NCBI GenBank assembly: GCA_900314565.1
Contig: OMVU01000002.1
Span: 1-39,092 of the forward strand
DNA: 39,092 nt
Origin: an uncultured Eubacteriales bacterium
Lineage (GTDB): Bacteria > Bacillota > Clostridia > Lachnospirales > Lachnospiraceae
Direction of reading: 5' to 3'
Shown piece by piece: positions 3,610-39,092 of the stretch. Position 1 is the first letter of the stretch, and each line of letters begins with the position of its first letter. The notes under the pieces were generated by a model. That model saw nothing but the letters and a program-made list of their open reading frames with translations, made no database searches and was not told the origin of the DNA. Both the position numbers and the translations under genes were made by a program.

Positions 3610-3641
3610 GGGTCGCAAATTCAAATCCCGCTGCCCCGACT
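3608..3641 (+). repeat. tRNA-Pro remnant: T-arm and 3' acceptor (direct repeat copy 2)
   Basis: The stretch reads GAGGGTCGC, then ATTCAAATC, then TGCCCCGACT: the variable-loop end, T-loop and acceptor 3' strand expected of a tRNA-Pro. The T-stem is imperfect and no D-arm or anticodon arm precedes it. From 3632 it matches copy 1 at 1512. This is where accessory sequence ends and the core DUF4317 gene follows, the usual geometry of an element integrated at a tRNA 3' end. Confidence 0.6.
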
Positions 3642-3644
3642 GGT

Positions 3645-3673
3645 CGGTGACGAATGTGTCGCCGGTCTTTTTT
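3645..3673 (+). terminator. Terminator of the lost tRNA-Pro
   Basis: CGGTGAC and GTCGCCG pair around GAATGT, then GTC and seven T follow. It is a well-formed intrinsic terminator on the plus strand. The copy at 1526-1556 has a mismatch in the same stem. Confidence 0.7.
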
Positions 3674-20144: not shown

Positions 20145-21317
20145 TTAATCAAAAAGCGCCCTTATCTTGTTCTCCTCCGCGTGCACGGACCCCTGTACCA
20201 TCTCCGGCTTCCCGCCACCGCGCGCTCCGAACTGCTCTCTCAGAATTTTCGCCATCTCCCGCGAATCCTTTTTTCTGCTTCCGACAACGAATCGGTATCC
20301 CTCCTCATCGTTCCCGCAGAACAGTCCGCAGTATCCTGATATTTTCTCCGTCATCCGGTTGACGGTCTCCTGCATGACCTTTCCTGTGAGCTCATTCTTC
20401 TCGAACAGGCAGGCATCGTACTCTCCGGCCGGGAGCGCTGCCGCTTTCATCTCCATTGCTGCGATCGACGCATTTTTCAGGGCTGCCTTGAGCGAGGTGT
20501 TTTCATTTTTCAGGCGCATCGTACTCTCGGGCACATTGTCGGCGGACGTCGTCAGGAAATTCGCCGTCCGGGTGAGAAGCATATGCTCATGGGCAAAAAG
20601 ACGCATCGCTCTCCCCCCGCAGAGGATGCTCACACGTGTTCCGCCTTTATAGTTGACCGCGCCGACGACCGCAAGGCAGCCGATCTCGCCCGATCTCCTC
20701 ACATGGGGCGCACAGCAGGCACATGCATCGATCCCCGGAAAGGTAACGACTCTCACCGCCCCGGTGAGCTCCAGCTTGCTGCGGTATTCGGCTTCCCGTG
20801 CCTCAGTTCCCTCCAGAAAAGAGATCTGTACCGCGACATTGCTCCAGATCGCCTCATTGGCTTTCCGCTCGATCAGAGCAAGCCCGCCCTCCGGGAACAC
20901 CCCGTTGAAATCCATCGTGACCTCTCTGTCAGAGAGGTGAAATCCGACATTATCGAATCCGAATTCCGTATGGACAAGACCGGAGAAGATATGCTCCCCG
21001 GAGTGCTGCTGCATATTCGAGAAACGATGATCCCAGTCGATCACACCCTCGACAACGTCTCCCTCCGCAGGCATCTTCTCCCCTTCCGGGATCTCCAGAA
21101 CATGGTGGATATAGCCGTCCCGGATCTGAACGTCCCTGACACAGAAACCGGCGAGAAAGCCCTTATCCGGGCTCTGACCGCCCTCCTCCGGGAAGAAGGC
21201 CGTGCGGTCCAGCACGATGCCGTCTTCCCCGGAAGAGATCACTTCAGCCGTAAAACGGACAGCGTACGCATCCGCATAATATATTTTTTCTGTCTTTACA
21301 CTATCCGAATCGAGCAT
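20145..21317 (-). CDS. Alanyl-tRNA editing protein, AlaX long form (DHHA1 domain)
   Basis: A 390-residue relative of the AlaRS editing and C-terminal domains, expected to deacylate Ser-tRNA(Ala) or Gly-tRNA(Ala) in trans. The zinc/active-site motif HxxxH is His105 and His109 in QQHSGEHIFSG; the partner Cys/His motif is CACCAPHV (about 199-206, equivalent to CGGTH). The AlaRS-like N-terminal barrel carries DRTAFFPEEGGQ. Residues 270-330 are helical, and the DHHA1 end has GARGGGKPEMVQGS. The start is MLDSDS with GAGGAG upstream; the frame continues 28 codons further into a repeated element that codes for an unrelated peptide, so the longer start is rejected. Confidence 0.92.
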   Translation of the reverse strand: MLDSDSVKTEKIYYADAYAVRFTAEVISSGEDGIVLDRTAFFPEEGGQSPDKGFLAGFCVRDVQIRDGYIHHVLEIPEGEKMPAEGDVVEGVIDWDHRFSNMQQHSGEHIFSGLVHTEFGFDNVGFHLSDREVTMDFNGVFPEGGLALIERKANEAIWSNVAVQISFLEGTEAREAEYRSKLELTGAVRVVTFPGIDACACCAPHVRRSGEIGCLAVVGAVNYKGGTRVSILCGGRAMRLFAHEHMLLTRTANFLTTSADNVPESTMRLKNENTSLKAALKNASIAAMEMKAAALPAGEYDACLFEKNELTGKVMQETVNRMTEKISGYCGLFCGNDEEGYRFVVGSRKKDSREMAKILREQFGARGGGKPEMVQGSVHAEENKIRALFD

Positions 21318-21348
21318 TCCTATCTCCTCTTTCGATATAAAGGCACTT

Positions 21349-21507
21349 GCGAAGCTCTGTGCGAAATGGAATTGTATGAACAATTCAAACAATCTGCACA
21401 AGCCTTAGAACTTCTTCATGAACGAAAGATGTGGAATGAGCAAAAACCGTTCTGTCTGAGCGAAGCGAGTTAACGTCATACAATTTCCATGAGGCACAGA
21501 CTTTCGC
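21349..21507. mobile_element. 159-bp terminal-inverted-repeat element upstream of alaX (MITE-like candidate)
   Basis: The left end reads GCGAAGCTCTGTGCGAAATG then GAATTGTATGA; the right end, read in reverse complement, is GCGAAAGTCTGTGCCTCATG then GAAATTGTATGA: about 26 of 32 positions agree. The left 96 bases recur at 38997-39092 with three differences. It holds a small dyad (GAATTGT/ACAATTC) and can code a 35-residue peptide beginning MELYEQFKQSAQALELL on the plus strand. It is wedged between fbp and alaX. A structured RNA or leader is an alternative reading. Confidence 0.6.
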
Positions 21508-21534
21508 TATCGCCTGCTTTCAAACAAGTACGGC

Positions 21535-23487
21535 TCAGCTGTCCCCTTCCACGATCTCACCGGACCGGTAAGCCTCCAGCAGCTGCTCGAGCTCCTCGAT
21601 ATCCTGCTTCAGCTTCTTCCCGATATCCGTGTCAGCAATGCACTGGCGCACTTCATACGATTCTACAGCGACAGCATCCGAATGAATATCCCTTCCCCGG
21701 CGGATCGCATCCTCCATGGATGTGAACGGCTCGTGCGCGACCAGGCGCATGCCTCTCGAGTTATAGATCAGCGTATATCCGGCAATCCCGGTCGTACCGT
21801 GATAAGCCTTCGAAAAGCCTCCGTCGATGACAAGCAGCTTCCCGTTGCATCGGACAGGAGAATCTCCCCTTCTGACAGGGACATGTCCGTTAATGATATG
21901 CTTATGCGGTCCCTCAAGACCGAATTCCTTGAGGATCCGGTCAACGACCTCCTCATTGTCGCGGAGAAGATAATACGCTGTCTTATTCTCCTTCTGTGTC
22001 TCCTTGTCTTCGATCATATATCGCTCGAAGGTGGCCATTTTCTCCTTTCCGAAGAGAGGTGAATCCTTATTGCACCAGATCCACCACAAAATGTCCTTTC
22101 CCTGCTCCCTGTGGACAGGATCCCGGGAGAAAAATGCCCGCCGCACCAGCGTATCCAGCCGGTCGTAGAGCGCCCGCCCCTTATAGATCCTTCCATAGAG
22201 ATTTACTTCCTTAAAATGTCCGTCCGGCGTGAGCGGCATACAGCCGTGGAAAAGCAGGTTGCCGTTGTAGACGGTATAGAGCTCGCCTTTTCTCAGAAGG
22301 AACTGCATATGCCTCTGCAGACGCTTGCAGCCCATAAAGGCGCTCTGAAGCCTTTCCATGACATACTCTTCCTCCAGGCTCAGCGCGTTGGGGTTCTTCG
22401 GATCGACTGTCGGGAGATTCGTATCCCGGAGAGGATATGTCTTTCCGTCCAGCTTGATCGTATACGTATCATAATCGATCTTCTCAAGGAGGTTCCGGTC
22501 CATCATGTCATATTCCGGCCGCCTCTTTACGATCTGCCCCTCGACCTTGAACTGGATGATGGAGATCGCCTTGTGAATGCGGACATTCATCTCCCGCTCT
22601 TCCCCGGGCAGTTCGCCTTTGGTCTGGAAACAGGTGCACGGGTCATCTCCATAAGTCTTCTGGGCAAATGTCGCGAGCGGAAGCAGATTGATCCCGTAGC
22701 CTTCCTCCAGGATATCCAGATTCCCATAGCGCGCGCTGTTCCTGATGACATTGGCAATGCAGGCCAGCTGACCGCAGGCTGCGCCCATCCACTCGATATC
22801 GTGGTTCCCCCACTGTATATCCAGGCTGTGGTAGTCCATGAGAACGTCCATAATATCATCCGGCCCGTAGCCCCTGTCATAAATATCTCCGAGAATATGG
22901 AGATGGTCGACGATCAGACGTCTCGCAAGCTCCGCGAGCGCCTTGATAAAGCTCTCCGAACGTCCGATCCGGATGATCGTATTGATGATCTCCTCGTAGT
23001 AGGCTTCCTTATCCTGGATATCACTGCGCTCCGTGATCAGCTCATCGATCACATATGCATAATCAGCCGGCATGGCTTTTCTGACTTTGGACCTCGTGTA
23101 CTTGCTGGACGTATATTTGCAGACCTCGATCAGACGGTACAGCATGACCCTGTACCAGTCTTCCATCTCCGAGTCGTCCGTGATCTCTTTCTTCACCAGC
23201 TCGATCTTCTCGGACGGATAGTAGACCAGCGTCGCCAGCTCCCGGATATCTTTTTCCGGCAGCGTCCTTCCGTAGACCTCATTGATCTTCTTCCGCACCG
23301 CACCGGAACCGTTCCGGATAACATGCGAAAAAGCCTCATACTCTCCGTGGATATCTGTGATAAAGTGCTCTGTTCCTTTCGGAAGATTCAAAATAGAGCT
23401 TAAGTTTATGATCTCCGTCGAAGCATCCGCGATGGTCGGATAGAGCTCCGAGAGTCTTTCGAGATAATGTCTGTCCAGTTTTTCCAT
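21535..23487 (-). CDS. fbp: Fructose-1,6-bisphosphatase, class III (Firmicutes type)
   Basis: A 650-residue enzyme of the class III family that removes the C1 phosphate from fructose-1,6-bisphosphate in gluconeogenesis. Calcineurin-like metallophosphatase motifs are visible: ITDIHGEYEAF (metal ligands), HILGDIYDRGYGPDDIMD, QWGNHDIEWMGAACG, and INGHVPVRRGDSPV with IDGGFSKAYHGTTGIAGYTL near the C-terminus. Length is normal. The start is MEKLDRHYLE because AAGGAAG is at proper distance; the frame opens five codons earlier. The upstream region carries symmetric repeats that may be operators, after the DUF1700 terminator. Confidence 0.95.
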   Translation of the reverse strand: MEKLDRHYLERLSELYPTIADASTEIINLSSILNLPKGTEHFITDIHGEYEAFSHVIRNGSGAVRKKINEVYGRTLPEKDIRELATLVYYPSEKIELVKKEITDDSEMEDWYRVMLYRLIEVCKYTSSKYTRSKVRKAMPADYAYVIDELITERSDIQDKEAYYEEIINTIIRIGRSESFIKALAELARRLIVDHLHILGDIYDRGYGPDDIMDVLMDYHSLDIQWGNHDIEWMGAACGQLACIANVIRNSARYGNLDILEEGYGINLLPLATFAQKTYGDDPCTCFQTKGELPGEEREMNVRIHKAISIIQFKVEGQIVKRRPEYDMMDRNLLEKIDYDTYTIKLDGKTYPLRDTNLPTVDPKNPNALSLEEEYVMERLQSAFMGCKRLQRHMQFLLRKGELYTVYNGNLLFHGCMPLTPDGHFKEVNLYGRIYKGRALYDRLDTLVRRAFFSRDPVHREQGKDILWWIWCNKDSPLFGKEKMATFERYMIEDKETQKENKTAYYLLRDNEEVVDRILKEFGLEGPHKHIINGHVPVRRGDSPVRCNGKLLVIDGGFSKAYHGTTGIAGYTLIYNSRGMRLVAHEPFTSMEDAIRRGRDIHSDAVAVESYEVRQCIADTDIGKKLKQDIEELEQLLEAYRSGEIVEGDS

Positions 23488-23528
23488 TTCTCTTCCTTTC
23501 ATTTCACATCTGTCCCTGTGAGATCTCT

Positions 23529-27432: not shown

Positions 27433-29745
27433 TTAATCAAGCTTGAACCCGAACAGATTGCAGGATCTGGAGCCCACCACGACATAATTCTCGTACACCG
27501 CGGGCGAGGCTTCGATATTCTGCTCGCCGAGAGAGTATCTGCATTTCTCCTCTCCCGTCAGACCGTCGATCAGGAGCGCGTCCCCGCCAAATGTAAAGTA
27601 GAGGACCGCGCCGCTCCCGTCGCGATTATATACGCAGACCGGAGAAGACCAGGTATACGTGTCTGTCTGCTCCCAAACGATCTCGCCCGAATCCTTTCGC
27701 AGGCAGACCAGCTGACCGGTATAATAATCATTCGTCTTCGCGACCGTCACGTAGACATAATCGGAGAAATCATATTTTCCGACTGCGACCGTCGACTGAA
27801 TACCTCCCGAGACTCCTTCTTCAGAGTGGCATTCGAAGTCTGTCTGCCATACGATCTCGCCGTTCTCCGCGTCGATCTTCCAGATCGGGACGGGCGCCGT
27901 GGAGTCACTCCGCCATCCGAGATGGAAGGACGTTCCGACATAGAGGTAGAGGTGTCCGTTCTCGATGGAGAGGACCGGAGTCCCGTTGGAGTCATCCAGA
28001 ATATCCTGGACCCAGACAAGCTCCATTGTCCTTAAGTCAAGGCACATCATATTTCCGCCGTTGTCGCAGACAAAGAGATAGCCCTTGTAAACGCAGGCAG
28101 AATCTTCCATTCCGAGCCAGAAGCTGCCGTCACCCGAGCGGGTCCCGTAATAATGCCAGCGAATGATCTCGCCCGGATCGATGGAGACCACTCCCGCTGC
28201 CTCATCGTAGACGGAGTTGAGCTTTATGAGATAGAGAATTCCGCTCTCACCGGGATAAATGAGCGTATCTGTCTCCGCGTCCACCAGGGCGGAGGAGTCG
28301 AAAAAGCTGCAGCCCGGCCTGAGCGAGAACGGGTCGTCCGCGCCGAACTCGTACATAACGCTCTGGTCGATCAGATTGATGACAAAGACGTGGGAAACCC
28401 CGATATCGCTGTCATAGCCGGATCCGACGTAAAGGATCGGATATCCGCGCGGGTCGAGCGCGCCGGAGCCCTTAAATGTATATCCCAGATACAGCGCGTC
28501 GCGCGTAGACTCTCCTGTCCGGAGGTCATAGAAATAAATGTATCCGTCCAGGCAGGCATGAATGACCTCGACGAGCTCATCATCCTCCTTTGCCCAGTCG
28601 TACATGTTCATGGCTGCTTTCTGGGATCTTGTCCATTTCTCCATAAGGGGCTGACCGGTCCATCCGCTTCCGCTCCAGTTCCGGCCGCCGGAAGTCAGGC
28701 TGGTGATCCCCTTCGTCCAGATATTGCTGACAGTATAATTTTTCATATCGGCAAAGCCGTACTGCGGGCTGTTCCGGAAATTTGTCCCGCGGAAGGTGAC
28801 GATACCGTCAACAGCCGTGTAATCCTCCCCGACGCCGAACGTGATGTCTGTCCAGGGAGAAACCGAACTCCGATCCTCTATGAGCTCGTCGTTCTTCATG
28901 ACCTCAGTGTAAGCAATCAGCCTGGACGGGTCCGTATTCTCCGTGGAGTGAGGATGGAATTCAATCTCCTGATCCCTCACATTGGAGACATCTTTTCCTG
29001 CGGGGATCTGTGCAGGCGTGGGCGTCGCTGCAGGCGTACCGGTGGGATTCACTGTCGGAGTGACGGTCGGAGCTGCCTGCGTGACTGTCGGAGCCTGCGT
29101 GTTCCCGCCTGCTGCCGGCTTTACTGTCTGGCCGCTCTGAGATTCCGTCTGCGCTTTGGCGCTTTCCGCCTTCGACACACGCGATGCGTGGATCCTGCTG
29201 ATCGAAACAGCGACGACCAGGATAAAGAGCAGCGCACACGCGACAAGGATCTGCGTTCTTCGCCGAAGCTCCTCTTTCCGCCGTTTCATGAGCGCTTTTC
29301 TTCTCGCGTCAGATCTTTTCTGGCTCTCACGAGCTTCCTCCTGAGCCATAGTGCGCGCGGGGGCTGCTGCTTTCCCGGCCTGAACTTCGGTCCTGCCGGC
29401 TGACTTTGCGGTCTTTCTGCCGGAGGACGCACTGCTGCCTGACTGCACGGTCTTTCCGCTGTAAGACACACTGCTGCCTGACTTCGCGGTCTTTCTGCCG
29501 GAGGACACACTGCTGCCTGACTTCGCGGTCTTTCTGCCGGAGGACACACTGCTGCCTGACGAACGCGCTGTCTTTTCGAAGAGTTCTTCCTGAAGATCCG
29601 CTCTGCTTCCCGCAGAGGAACTGCGGACTGCTCTGTCCGGCGCTCTTCCGCTCTCAGTCCTTCGTCTTCCCGATCCGCTTCCCGATCTGGTCCCGGCGCG
29701 TTCTCTTCCCGCCCGGTCCGTACTTCTTTTTCTGCTATCCGGCAT
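27433..29745 (-). CDS. Membrane-anchored PQQ-like beta-propeller protein with basic Ser-rich tail
   Basis: A 770-residue protein. Residues 1-160 are disordered, basic and Ser/Gly/Arg-rich, with four 13-residue repeats of the GSSVSSGRKTAKS type (about 63-114). One membrane span is at about 165-183 (ILVACALLFILVVAVSISRI). A Thr/Pro linker (205-250) precedes an extracellular region with PQQ/quinoprotein-like propeller blades (VYKGYLFVCDNGGNMMCLDL, IWKIDAENGEIVWQTD, LVCLRKDSGEIVWEQ, NIEASPAVYENYVVVG). No catalytic dehydrogenase residues are evident; it may be an assembly or binding platform at the cell surface. Good GGGGGAGG before the ATG. First gene of the run with the PLC-like and ATPase genes. 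Confidence 0.85.
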   Translation of the reverse strand: MPDSRKRSTDRAGRERAGTRSGSGSGRRRTESGRAPDRAVRSSSAGSRADLQEELFEKTARSSGSSVSSGRKTAKSGSSVSSGRKTAKSGSSVSYSGKTVQSGSSASSGRKTAKSAGRTEVQAGKAAAPARTMAQEEARESQKRSDARRKALMKRRKEELRRRTQILVACALLFILVVAVSISRIHASRVSKAESAKAQTESQSGQTVKPAAGGNTQAPTVTQAAPTVTPTVNPTGTPAATPTPAQIPAGKDVSNVRDQEIEFHPHSTENTDPSRLIAYTEVMKNDELIEDRSSVSPWTDITFGVGEDYTAVDGIVTFRGTNFRNSPQYGFADMKNYTVSNIWTKGITSLTSGGRNWSGSGWTGQPLMEKWTRSQKAAMNMYDWAKEDDELVEVIHACLDGYIYFYDLRTGESTRDALYLGYTFKGSGALDPRGYPILYVGSGYDSDIGVSHVFVINLIDQSVMYEFGADDPFSLRPGCSFFDSSALVDAETDTLIYPGESGILYLIKLNSVYDEAAGVVSIDPGEIIRWHYYGTRSGDGSFWLGMEDSACVYKGYLFVCDNGGNMMCLDLRTMELVWVQDILDDSNGTPVLSIENGHLYLYVGTSFHLGWRSDSTAPVPIWKIDAENGEIVWQTDFECHSEEGVSGGIQSTVAVGKYDFSDYVYVTVAKTNDYYTGQLVCLRKDSGEIVWEQTDTYTWSSPVCVYNRDGSGAVLYFTFGGDALLIDGLTGEEKCRYSLGEQNIEASPAVYENYVVVGSRSCNLFGFKLD
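29402..29557 (-). repeat. Four tandem 39-bp repeats in the propeller gene
   Basis: Units start at 29402, 29441, 29480 and 29519. The last two are identical in all 39 bases, and the first differs by two; the second is more diverged. Each codes 13 residues (KSGSSVSSGRKTA type), so copy-number change keeps the frame. Confidence 0.9.
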
Positions 29746-34080: not shown

Positions 34081-34355
34081 ATAGATAGTTCCCCAGTCAA
34101 TTCCGCATGCTCTTTATTCTTCATCGCGCAGAGAAGAAGGTGCTTCGGACCCTGCGCAGCGCGGCAAGAACGCCGAGGCGTTCCTGTAAAGGACATGTTA
34201 ACATGAACCGGGCCGGATTGTCACCTGATTTTGAGAACCATACGGCTGCCCGATACGGCTGCAGTCACGGCGTACTGCGGCACCATGTAAAGCCTCGTCA
34301 CAGACGCTGTGGCAGCGCACCGCATGTATGCAGATCTTCTTTACAGACGCCATGC

Positions 34356-37206: not shown

Positions 37207-38949
37207 TTACTCCACCTCCTTGATTGCGCCGAACTTGCAGAGCTGGCGGCAGAGACCGCAGCCGTTGCACTGCGTCGGATCGATCGTGATCAATCCGTCT
37301 TCATTCTTTGAGAGCGCGGGGCAGCCCGGAAGCGAGCAGGCGCCGCAGTGTTTGCATTTCTCAGGAATTTCGACACACTTCTTCTTCGTGCGCGCCTCCG
37401 GTATGAGCGCGCAGGGAGCCTTCGCGACGATGACCGACAGGTGATCCGCTTTGACCTCCCTCTTCACAGTCTCCATCAGCTCCTGCTGGTCAAGGGCGTT
37501 GACTGTGTAGACATGCTCTATTCCAAGGCCCTGGCAGAACTTCTCAAAATCGATTGCCGGGACGACCTCGCCCATGAGCGTTCTGCCCGTGGCCGGATTG
37601 TCCTGATGGCCTGTCATGGCTGTAATCCGGTTATCAAGAATGATGACCGTGCCGGTGCTCTGATTGTAGACCATATTCATGAGGGAGTTCACACCCGTAT
37701 GCATGAAGGTCGAATCTCCGATCACGCTGACCCAGTCTCTCAGGTAGTCTTCACCCTTTGCCTTGCCCATGCCGTGCAGGGAGGAAATGGAAGCTCCCAT
37801 GCAAAGACAGGTCTCAAGCGTTGCCAGCGGCGGGACCGCGCCCAGCGTATAGCAGCCGATATCACCGGCGACATGGAGCTTCAGCCTCTTCAGCGCCCAG
37901 AACGTGCTTCTGTGCGGGCATCCCGGACAGAGGATCGGCGGACGGTTCGGAGTATTCTCCGCCTGTACCGCATTGATTTCCATGCCGAGGAGCTTTTCGC
38001 GGATCATGTTCGCGGAGTACTCGCCGAGCTTTGTAAAGATATTCTTTCCGTCACAGGCAATTCCCCAGGACTTCACCTGCTCCTCGATGACCGGCATGAG
38101 CTCCTCGAAAATGATCAGTCTGTCGACCTTCGATGCGAACTCCTCGATCAGCTTCCTGGGAAGCGGATGGACAAGTCCGAGCTTCAGCGTGGAAGCCTCC
38201 GGCATTGCTTCCCTGACATACAGGTACGGTATGCCGCTCGTGATGAAGCCGATCTTCGTGTCGCGGATCTCCATGCGGTTCAGCTTCTCCATGGAACATG
38301 CGTCCTCGGCGAGCTTCTCCATCTGATCCTCGACGATCACATGGCGGCGGATCGCGTTGGCCGGAAGCATGACATTTTTCGCGATATTCTTCTCATACGG
38401 CTTATCCGGCACCTCCTCGCGCGGGCAGAGTTCGACCATGCCCTGCGAATGCGCGAGTCTTGTCGTTGTGCGGATCACGACCGGTTTGTCGTAGGTCTCG
38501 CTGATCTCATATGCGAGCTTCGCGAAATCCTTCGCTTCCTGAGAGTCCGACGGCTCAAGGACCGGGACCTGGGCAGCTCTCGATACGGCGCGCGTGTCCT
38601 GCTCGTTCTGGGAGCTGTAGACTCCCGGATCATCGGCAACGCACAGGACCATGCCCCGTCCGACACCCGCGTAAGCTGCGGAATAGACCGGGTCTGCCGC
38701 GACATTGAAGCCGACCATCTTCATACATGCAAATGAACGGACACCGGCGACCGACGCTCCGAACGCGACCTCAGCCGCGACCTTCTCGTTCGGTGCCCAT
38801 TCACAGTACAGATCGTCTTTATACTGGACCAGATTCTCACTGATTTCCGTGCTCGGCGTACCCGGATAGGCAGATGCGACCTTGACGCCGGCCTCCCAAA
38901 GGCCGCGGGCGATTGCCGCGTTGCCGAGCATTAACTGTTTTTCACCCAT
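37207..38949 (-). CDS. iorA: Indolepyruvate:ferredoxin oxidoreductase, alpha subunit
   Basis: A 580-residue TPP-dependent subunit. The N-terminal pyrimidine-binding domain starts LMLGNAAIARGLWEAGVKVA with AYPGTPSTEI; the TPP motif is GDSTFMHTGVNSLMNMVYN; CPGCPHRSTFWALKRL is typical of IorA. The C-terminus has a ferredoxin domain with CKHCGACSLPGCPAL and CNGCGLCRQLCKFG for two [4Fe-4S] clusters. The start is MGEKQLM with AGGAGG upstream; the longer frame is rejected. The function is fermentative oxidation of aromatic 2-oxoacids. A repeat element lies just upstream. Confidence 0.96.
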   Translation of the reverse strand: MGEKQLMLGNAAIARGLWEAGVKVASAYPGTPSTEISENLVQYKDDLYCEWAPNEKVAAEVAFGASVAGVRSFACMKMVGFNVAADPVYSAAYAGVGRGMVLCVADDPGVYSSQNEQDTRAVSRAAQVPVLEPSDSQEAKDFAKLAYEISETYDKPVVIRTTTRLAHSQGMVELCPREEVPDKPYEKNIAKNVMLPANAIRRHVIVEDQMEKLAEDACSMEKLNRMEIRDTKIGFITSGIPYLYVREAMPEASTLKLGLVHPLPRKLIEEFASKVDRLIIFEELMPVIEEQVKSWGIACDGKNIFTKLGEYSANMIREKLLGMEINAVQAENTPNRPPILCPGCPHRSTFWALKRLKLHVAGDIGCYTLGAVPPLATLETCLCMGASISSLHGMGKAKGEDYLRDWVSVIGDSTFMHTGVNSLMNMVYNQSTGTVIILDNRITAMTGHQDNPATGRTLMGEVVPAIDFEKFCQGLGIEHVYTVNALDQQELMETVKREVKADHLSVIVAKAPCALIPEARTKKKCVEIPEKCKHCGACSLPGCPALSKNEDGLITIDPTQCNGCGLCRQLCKFGAIKEVE

Positions 38950-38996
38950 GACTTTTCCTCCTAACAACTTTTCATATAGATCAGGTTCCTGCAAAA

Positions 38997-39092
38997 CTCT
39001 GTGCGAAATGAAATTGTGTGAACAATTCAAACAATCTGCACAAGCCTTGGAACTTCTTCATGAACGAAAGATGTGGAATGAGCAAAAACCGT
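38997..39092. mobile_element. Second copy of the terminal-inverted-repeat element, cut by the window end
   Basis: CTCTGTGCGAAATGAAATTG and the following 76 bases match 21355-21450 with three differences in 96 and no indels. Like copy 1 it lies directly upstream of the ribosome binding site of a minus-strand gene (iorA) in the same orientation relative to it. The right end is outside the window. Confidence 0.65.

Follow-up and report, generated by a model that had tools for sequence, protein, structure and literature searches.

Background

The MITEs described from prokaryotes, among them Correia, QMITE1/2 and Chunjie, are shorter than 500 bp and carry terminal inverted repeats, and their younger copies are flanked by direct repeats (PMC10969869). 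In the portions of that source available to us they are further described as intergenic, present in dozens of copies and of widely varying size, with 39-400 bp for QMITE1 and 178-235 bp for Chunjie, and the Correia elements are said to lie mostly immediately upstream of genes and to be able to invert (PMC10969869). The element family reported here resembles these MITEs in its size, inverted repeats, flanking repeats, copy number, intergenic location and length variation. It differs from them, as far as those portions describe them, in standing at a fixed distance from a Shine-Dalgarno (SD)-like motif, in having an interior that is more conserved than its ends and a structured core that is found in other phyla, and in that no parent insertion sequence was found for it among PF01609 transposases or in the loci examined. 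Literature searches on SD targeting, on MITEs of this group, on structured MITEs and on the apex word of the hairpin treated below gave no description among the matches listed (preprints and most subscription papers lay outside these searches).

Copies of the element in the window and their gene neighbors

The window, that is, the whole stretch of 39,092 nucleotides that was analyzed, contains two copies of the element. A sequence-only reading had placed a 159-bp terminal-inverted-repeat element at 21349-21507. This element is real, with slightly larger limits: as set from the end motifs, copy 1 occupies 21341-21515 of the plus strand (175 bp) and is an internal-deletion derivative of a family with a full length of approximately 245 bp. 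It ends in AGGC...GCCT with one more base of CAGGC/GCCTG on each side, the left outer base being A and not C. The left terminal arm (21341-21381, plus strand) pairs with the right terminal arm (21477-21515, plus strand, ending in GCCT(G) and placed from the fold and the end motifs), with a GAA/GAA internal loop that is conserved in the family, as placed from the fold and from pairing and covariation across the family. What remains of the conserved core, read against the 245-bp consensus, lies at 21393-21476 of the plus strand and runs from TCTGCACAAG to just beyond the apex or cap, TGTCTGAGCGAAGCGAGTT, which is matched exactly at 21453-21471 (plus strand); the right half of the core is deleted, and with it most of the right arm between the apex and the terminal arm. 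The plus strand of copy 1 folds at -50.8 kcal/mol against -34.2 +/- 3.9 kcal/mol in dinucleotide shuffles (z -4.3), 16.6 kcal/mol better than their mean. An inverted-repeat finder at default settings reported nothing at copy 1, whose arms are interrupted by mismatches.

Copy 2 (38983-39092, plus strand) is cut by the end of the window and reaches 39210 on contig C115, with 12 N inside it in the assembly. The three differences in 96 bases that the sequence-only reading counted between the two copies were confirmed on recounting, and the similarity was also found as a direct repeat; the start given there, 38997, moves to 38983. A target duplication, TTTCATATAGAT, is present at 38970-38981 (plus strand), with TTTCATACAGAT on the other side, beyond the window, and 11 of the 12 bases are identical. 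Copy 1 has no clear target duplication.

As the sequence-only reading had stated, each copy immediately precedes the ribosome-binding site of a gene on the minus strand, and the two share one orientation. The gene downstream of copy 1 is AlaX-like (20145-21317, minus strand, start codon read from the sequence), and Pfam, run on 20145-21320, gave alanyl-tRNA-synthetase-type, tRNA_SAD and DHHA1 domains. Its start codon is 23 bp from the element end and its SD-like motif, GAGGAG, is at 21324-21329 (minus strand), which puts GGA 13 nt from the element end, off the family peak of 18-21 nt. Upstream of copy 1 is a Firmicute fructose-1,6-bisphosphatase gene (FBPase_2 by Pfam; 21535-23502, minus strand). 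Since its motif is off the peak and its duplication is not clear, copy 1 may mark an old or altered site. The gene downstream of copy 2 is iorA-like (37207-38949, minus strand, start codon read from the sequence), with POR_N, TPP_enzyme_C and Fer4 domains by Pfam run on 37207-38952. The start codon of iorA is 33 bp from the element end and its SD-like motif, AGGAGG, is at 38957-38962 (minus strand), with GGA 21 nt from copy 2, which fits the family spacing.

Two further suggestions of the sequence-only reading, that each copy can code a small peptide and might supply a promoter, were not supported. The 35-codon frame of copy 1 ends differently in other copies and is broken by stops in the cores of other genomes, and a small coding gene was rejected on these grounds. 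A simple sigma-70 scan found no promoter-like sites in 21280-21640 (0.4 expected), and no terminator was found by simple scan.

The element family in the source genome

The source genome is a draft of 4.22 Mb in 191 contigs. A DNA search of it with copy 1 as the query reported 60 matches (40 of 146 candidates scored). A 20-base core word was found at 73 places exactly, at three with one mismatch and at none with two (reversed control, 0), a right-arm word at 77 places (control, 0), and the end pattern AGGCNNTTGCGAA at 163 places (control, 4); the end sequence of the family is also written CAGGCNNTTGCGAAA. Elements were drawn from 100 of the 163 end-pattern places, among the matches listed, so that short elements on high-numbered contigs are missing; the places from the listed matches formed 127 clusters, and these gave 98 elements with both ends. 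The sequence-only reading had proposed such a genome-wide search and had allowed for the case that two copies exist as part of one larger duplicated gene; the genome instead holds many copies, at least 98 of them paired elements, and many also occur in relatives.

These elements end in CAGGC...GCCTG and are 45-339 bp long, the commonest lengths being 244-245 bp (14 of 98), and 83 of them have at most 13 mismatches between their ends. One lies inside a called reading frame. No conserved reading frame runs through the family and no transposase gene is found inside the elements. Nine of the 98 have another element end within 34 bp, as detected by a simple pattern. As MITEs do, the family has terminal inverted repeats, a length below 500 bp, no transposase gene, target duplications and empty sites.

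Two elements of 338-339 bp, L073 (C81:41186) and L128 (C160:46374), have another small hairpin repeat inserted near the apex. Runs of N, which are assembly gaps, occur near the apex inside the copies at C115:38983, C70:2537, C138:87255 and C183:3440.

Evidence for insertion

Target duplications and empty sites had both been named by the sequence-only reading as things to look for, and both were found. With the ends set at CAGGC/GCCTG, the flanks could be compared for the 83 elements with at most 13 end mismatches and flanks of at least 20; duplicated flanks (score of at least 6, mostly 10-12 bp) were present at 41 of the 83, against 0.12% of shuffled flank pairs, while 42 copies lacked a clear duplication. 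Short forms of 40-70 bp had a target duplication in seven of 11 copies. At C105:69545 a 175-bp element is flanked on both sides by ACAAGAGAGAT; the corresponding place in the sister genome G034 shows a single TGATAAGAGAT followed by ATTGAAAGGAGG and no element. G034 also lacks the copy at C185:11655, for which no clear duplication was seen. In three relatives (G005, G021 and G017) the FBPase and AlaX-like genes are adjacent by alignment, as they are around copy 1, and the orthologous intergenic regions contain no element; the intergenic sequences differ among these relatives, so this is an absence and not a base-by-base empty site.

Sister species vary in the presence and absence of the element, and also in its form. 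One target site holds an element of 245 bp in the source genome and of 83 bp in G034. At C100:57018 the source genome and G034 (L354) have an element at the same place in opposite orientation, flanked by a duplication of 12 bp in the source genome and by 10 bp of the same sequence, read by eye, in G034. Inversion via the terminal repeats could explain the opposite orientation, but not the differing lengths of the duplication. The iorA leader also contains an element in opposite orientation in the source genome and in G005, where the contig ends inside the element; by reading, nine other iorA orthologs (L382-L390) have no element within up to 330 nt upstream.

An imperfect hairpin with conserved mismatches, intergenic and in many copies, could also be a REP/BIME-type hairpin mobilized by a Y1 (RAYT) transposase. 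To our knowledge, REP sequences make no target duplications, and this family has both target duplications and an empty site, so we consider this origin highly unlikely.

Probable target choice

The usual view of bacterial transposons is that selection after insertion is the main way in which harm is avoided. In the present family, an SD-like motif (consensus GAAAGGAG), scored as AAGGAG, AAAGGA, AGGAGG or GAGGAG at 10-22 nt outside the element end, is found on exactly one side of 64 of the 98 copies and on both sides of none. Windows shifted by 100-400 nt gave 3-8 of 98, and the opposite strand was without a peak. Of the 64 motif-bearing copies, 56 have their GGA at 18-21 nt from the element end; the remaining 34 copies are without the strict motif, and several of these have near versions by eye. 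The duplicated bases sit between the element and the motif, with the element in either orientation. Of 94 measured flanks that face a start codon, 44 have it 28-36 bp from the element end, with gene distances taken from a simple purpose-made gene finder, and orientation before genes is free (30 versus 24 of 54 cases near a start). No gene start was called for 17 of the motif hits, of which some do have a start codon nearby and at least three (C77:18999, C95:11643 and C105:144) resemble terminator stems. Finding the motif beside start-less, terminator-like sites favors a reading of DNA over translation or selection. The bias toward positions upstream of genes, which the sequence-only reading had wished to see examined, is present, but its form has changed: it is a spacing from an SD-like motif, which is also found next to some copies that have no called gene start.

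The same motif was recovered in three relatives, at 20 of 30 ends in G005 (controls, 0-1), eight of 22 ends in G034 (controls, 0-1) and two of six ends in G051 (controls, 0); these fractions are lowered because an end on the side away from the motif cannot score. The target rule, which is unusual and was replicated, is the firmest of our new claims. Several loci in G005, such as L323, L325, L328, L339 and L368, have ends of approximately 24 bp beside an SD and no partner end within range, as if the gene-side end alone had been kept.

The elements might instead insert anywhere in AT-rich intergenic DNA, with selection keeping those that have a working promoter and ribosome-binding site and without any choice of target. 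Purifying selection clearly acts, as the single element inside a called reading frame attests. Selection of this kind would yield broad distances and not the 4-bp window within which GGA falls in most motif-bearing copies, and it sits poorly with a motif that also adjoins copies without a called gene start, some in terminator-like stems, and with a 10-12 bp target that was struck in the opposite orientation in a sister species. We regard this explanation as unlikely.

Very probably, the family is a non-autonomous DNA transposon of the MITE kind, sited at a narrow spacing from the GAAAGGAG motif by a putative motif-reading transposase or partner and carrying a structured interior. A trans-acting transposase, or a partner protein, would read the purine motif in DNA and the cut, staggered by 10-12 bp, would fall just upstream of it; because the stagger is of near-constant length, the transposase is probably of the DDE type. 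The element would land in the leader of a gene and the ribosome-binding site would be left intact, and since the motif is left intact a second insertion could follow, so that the same target may be struck again. A host gene transcribed from upstream would then have a long 5'-leader hairpin with its foot approximately 16-19 nt before the SD. If the SD motif is indeed read at a narrow spacing, the family would be a bacterial counterpart of those eukaryotic elements that seek out harmless sites next to genes, and it would directly rewire 5' leaders across a genome.

Terminal stem and structured interior

The sequence-only reading had pointed to covariation in the stem as a further check, and the terminal stems are indeed compensated. 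Across the arms of 87 of the 98 elements (at most 16 mismatches and at least 58 bp) we counted 41 double changes, compared with 7.6 +/- 2.8 on re-paired arms and a largest value of 16 in 1000 shuffles. Some unpaired bases are conserved as well, above all those of the GAA/GAA internal loop. The interior of the family is a hairpin of approximately 143 nt with the apex TGTCTGAGCGNAGCGAGTT. Divergence per position among the copies of the source genome is 1-2% in the interior, 8-9% in the outer 29 and 40 positions and 14-20% at the positions adjacent to the apex; the apex itself is exact in 21 and fuzzy in 32 of the 98 copies, and is deleted or changed in many. An interior conserved above the ends is unusual for a MITE and was counted against the MITE reading.

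Relatives keep the core and have different stems, and 22 of 24 cores are 142-146 nt long; one G040 locus that was tried (L166) had no core by the motif used for extraction. The core alignment, A1, has 17 rows from nine genomes and a Clostridium MAG from water deer rumen (L184), and consists of 16 of the 24 cores together with a hand-made consensus of the copies of the source genome. Four near-identical cores of the source genome and two from G016 (L375 and L378) were left out, as were L164 and L228, whose core, with one side deleted or replaced, does not fit the structure. RNAalifold found 43 paired columns in these 17 cores, 26 of them with double changes. In the core there are 26 wobble pairs to 13 A-C mismatches, omitting one U-G pair common to all 17 rows, and in the terminal stem 59 to 49, which modestly suggests that the core, and not the terminal arms, shows a preferred strand.

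A position just before the SD, a conserved and structured core in which 26 of 43 pairs are double-changed, and a wobble excess that fits the structure of the apex-bearing strand are what might be expected if the element were mainly a host cis-regulatory RNA leader, spread by its usefulness upstream of genes and mobile incidentally. Orientations before genes are about equal, so that about half of the copies would give the structure of the other strand; many copies have lost or altered the apex, and presence and absence differ between sister species. A regulatory leader as the main nature of the family therefore seems to us unlikely.

Three copies in G024 have outer stems that are mutually unrelated, each of them self-complementary, and the sole G027 copy has yet another stem. 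The G016 copies share approximately 20 bp, beyond which own flanks pair better than swapped ones in four of seven G016-type copies, clearly in L164 and L375 and not in L374 or L228. At C126:103675 and at the orthologous place in G034 (L342) the terminal arms are the same and G034 has a quite different long hairpin as its interior, so the interior between these ends seems to be exchangeable. We infer that the interior of approximately 143 nt is a distinct structured module, common to hairpins elsewhere and carried by the transposon.

It is possible, if on balance doubtful, that the capped core is a mobile or captured unit in its own right, lying in the loop of a shorter hairpin MITE of which the 45-83 bp forms are the version without the core. 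The similar cores within unrelated outer stems in G024 and G027, and in part in G016, would fit such a unit, as would the same MITE ends around a different interior at C126:103675 and L342, the site with 245 bp in the source genome and 83 bp in G034, and the target duplications of the short forms. The 83-bp form could equally have arisen if the sequence between TTTGAA direct repeats, which can be read in the 245-bp form, was deleted; no pair of core-less and core-bearing copies with a junction duplication was found in one attempt, on a G024 copy with relatives of at most 72% identity; and beyond the shared 20 bp the better pairing of own flanks extends to only four of the seven G016-type copies.

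The capped hairpin in other bacteria

A scan of the GTDB collection found the apex word in at least 116 stretches, with approximately four expected by chance by our own arithmetic. Its carriers, among the matches listed, include Marinobacter, Luteimonas, Stenotrophomonas, Variovorax, Sphingobacterium, Parabacteroides, Nitrospira and Lachnospiraceae. Within the phylum of the source genome (249 genomes) it was found in the source genome and in five of the 248 others, in 1 to 19 copies (control, 0 in all 249); the distribution is thus patchy, and the word is multi-copy in four of the five. Flanks of 30 nt pair strongly at 133 of 146 distinct apex sites, compared with 28 of 145 when flanks were swapped. 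The sequence GCGAAGC is listed with extraordinarily stable DNA hairpins, as the d(GCGNAGC) mini-hairpin. The apex contains GCGNAGC with a variable base at N, a likeness that extends over only seven bases.

R1, a covariance model of the core, was applied to the window and to 42 loci selected for having the exact apex. In the window it matched copy 1 at 21393-21514 (34.7 bits, E 5.3e-7) and copy 2 at 39035-39092 (36.9 bits, E 1e-7), both of which are near kin of rows in the model. Of the 42 loci, 41 gave a match with E no higher than 1, and in 30 of these E was 0.001 or lower, the Stenotrophomonas locus L178 being without a match. Two Lachnospiraceae loci scored 84 and 95 bits, Anaerocolumna 72, two further loci 98 and 88, and four G304 copies 44-55; loci of Bacteroidales, Oxalobacteraceae and Marinobacter scored 31-33, and those of Nitrospira, Luteimonas and several others 13-28, barely above the apex alone. 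Lachnospiraceae and other Clostridia are among the named records whose core matches scored highly. As the exact apex was the criterion by which the loci were picked, it contributes to every score in advance, and a relationship that goes beyond the apex is well established only for Clostridia and G304. R1 also found second core copies that the exact word had missed in L184, L266, L455 and L457. In the Clostridium MAG (L184) the core copies are at 2599-2739 and 2846-2987, in opposite orientation and approximately 100 bp apart, and the Marinobacter loci L174 and L198 have inverted pairs of the apex word.

The sequence-only reading knew of no named family that fits, and Rfam bears this out: at the gathering score there was no family for the window element, with two tRNAs as the only hits in the whole window, and none for nine apex loci. 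A full-length copy searched at E up to 10 gave a chance-level match to Spd-sr07 (E 0.77, 20.5 bits against 55) and nothing else. In its conserved loops and covarying stems the family is nevertheless like the curated RNA families of Rfam.

A hairpin family that spans phyla is the boldest of our claims. We see an even balance for and against the joint reading, in which an SD-addressed element lands in leaders without breaking them and is able to stack, and its core belongs to an uncatalogued, patchy, multi-copy family of long capped hairpins in Firmicutes, Bacteroidota, Pseudomonadota and Nitrospirota. As part of that reading, stems that vary among copies and are nearly always paired around near-invariant loops would point to a single conserved factor that binds RNA or single-stranded DNA. 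The core then poses a second, testable question, namely what recognizes the same 19-base apex in hairpins of several phyla.

Carriage by plasmids or phages was considered and rejected, as a blastn search of plasmid and phage collections with the consensus gave no match; seven viral contigs carry the apex. No clear candidate for a gene traveling with the apex was found within 2.5 kb, where the widest clusters comprised seven loci and had sequences that looked like those of common gene families.

Search for a mobilizing enzyme

Among known insertion sequences, IS4 elements of the IS231 group make duplications of 10-12 bp, and ISAs1 elements make duplications of 8-10 bp and have CAGG-type ends. 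The present family is like IS231 in its 10-12 bp duplications and like ISAs1 in its CAGG-type ends. It differs from both IS4 and ISAs1 in that no match to its end pattern with fewer than six mismatches lies near PF01609 transposases. The source genome has 11 PF01609 hits, one of them at a contig edge with one side unseen. Ten were typed by best match as IS1634 (five), IS1182 (three), IS1380 (one) and IS4 (one), three of the ten falling below the curated cut-off. A parent of the IS4, IS1634, IS1182 or IS1380 type was rejected for want of matching ends, and an origin as an ISAs1-derived MITE was set aside because ISAs1 is not among the ten typed hits, in a draft genome with one hit untyped. No autonomous element was seen among 85 unpaired ends in the loci examined, and at the two loci whose partner end lies 0.6-1.9 kb off, the intervening genes are ordinary ones.

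Other repeats in the window

The window contains several further repeats. At 34166-34185 is AAGAACGCCGAGGCGTTCCT, a member of another palindromic repeat that was found in several element flanks (0.01 expected in the window). A 39-bp tandem repeat, found as four overlapping copies of a 78-nt unit, lies at 29393-29587 inside a minus-strand frame (27433-29745), and a direct repeat of 42 nt with 90% identity is present at 1512-1553 and 3632-3673.
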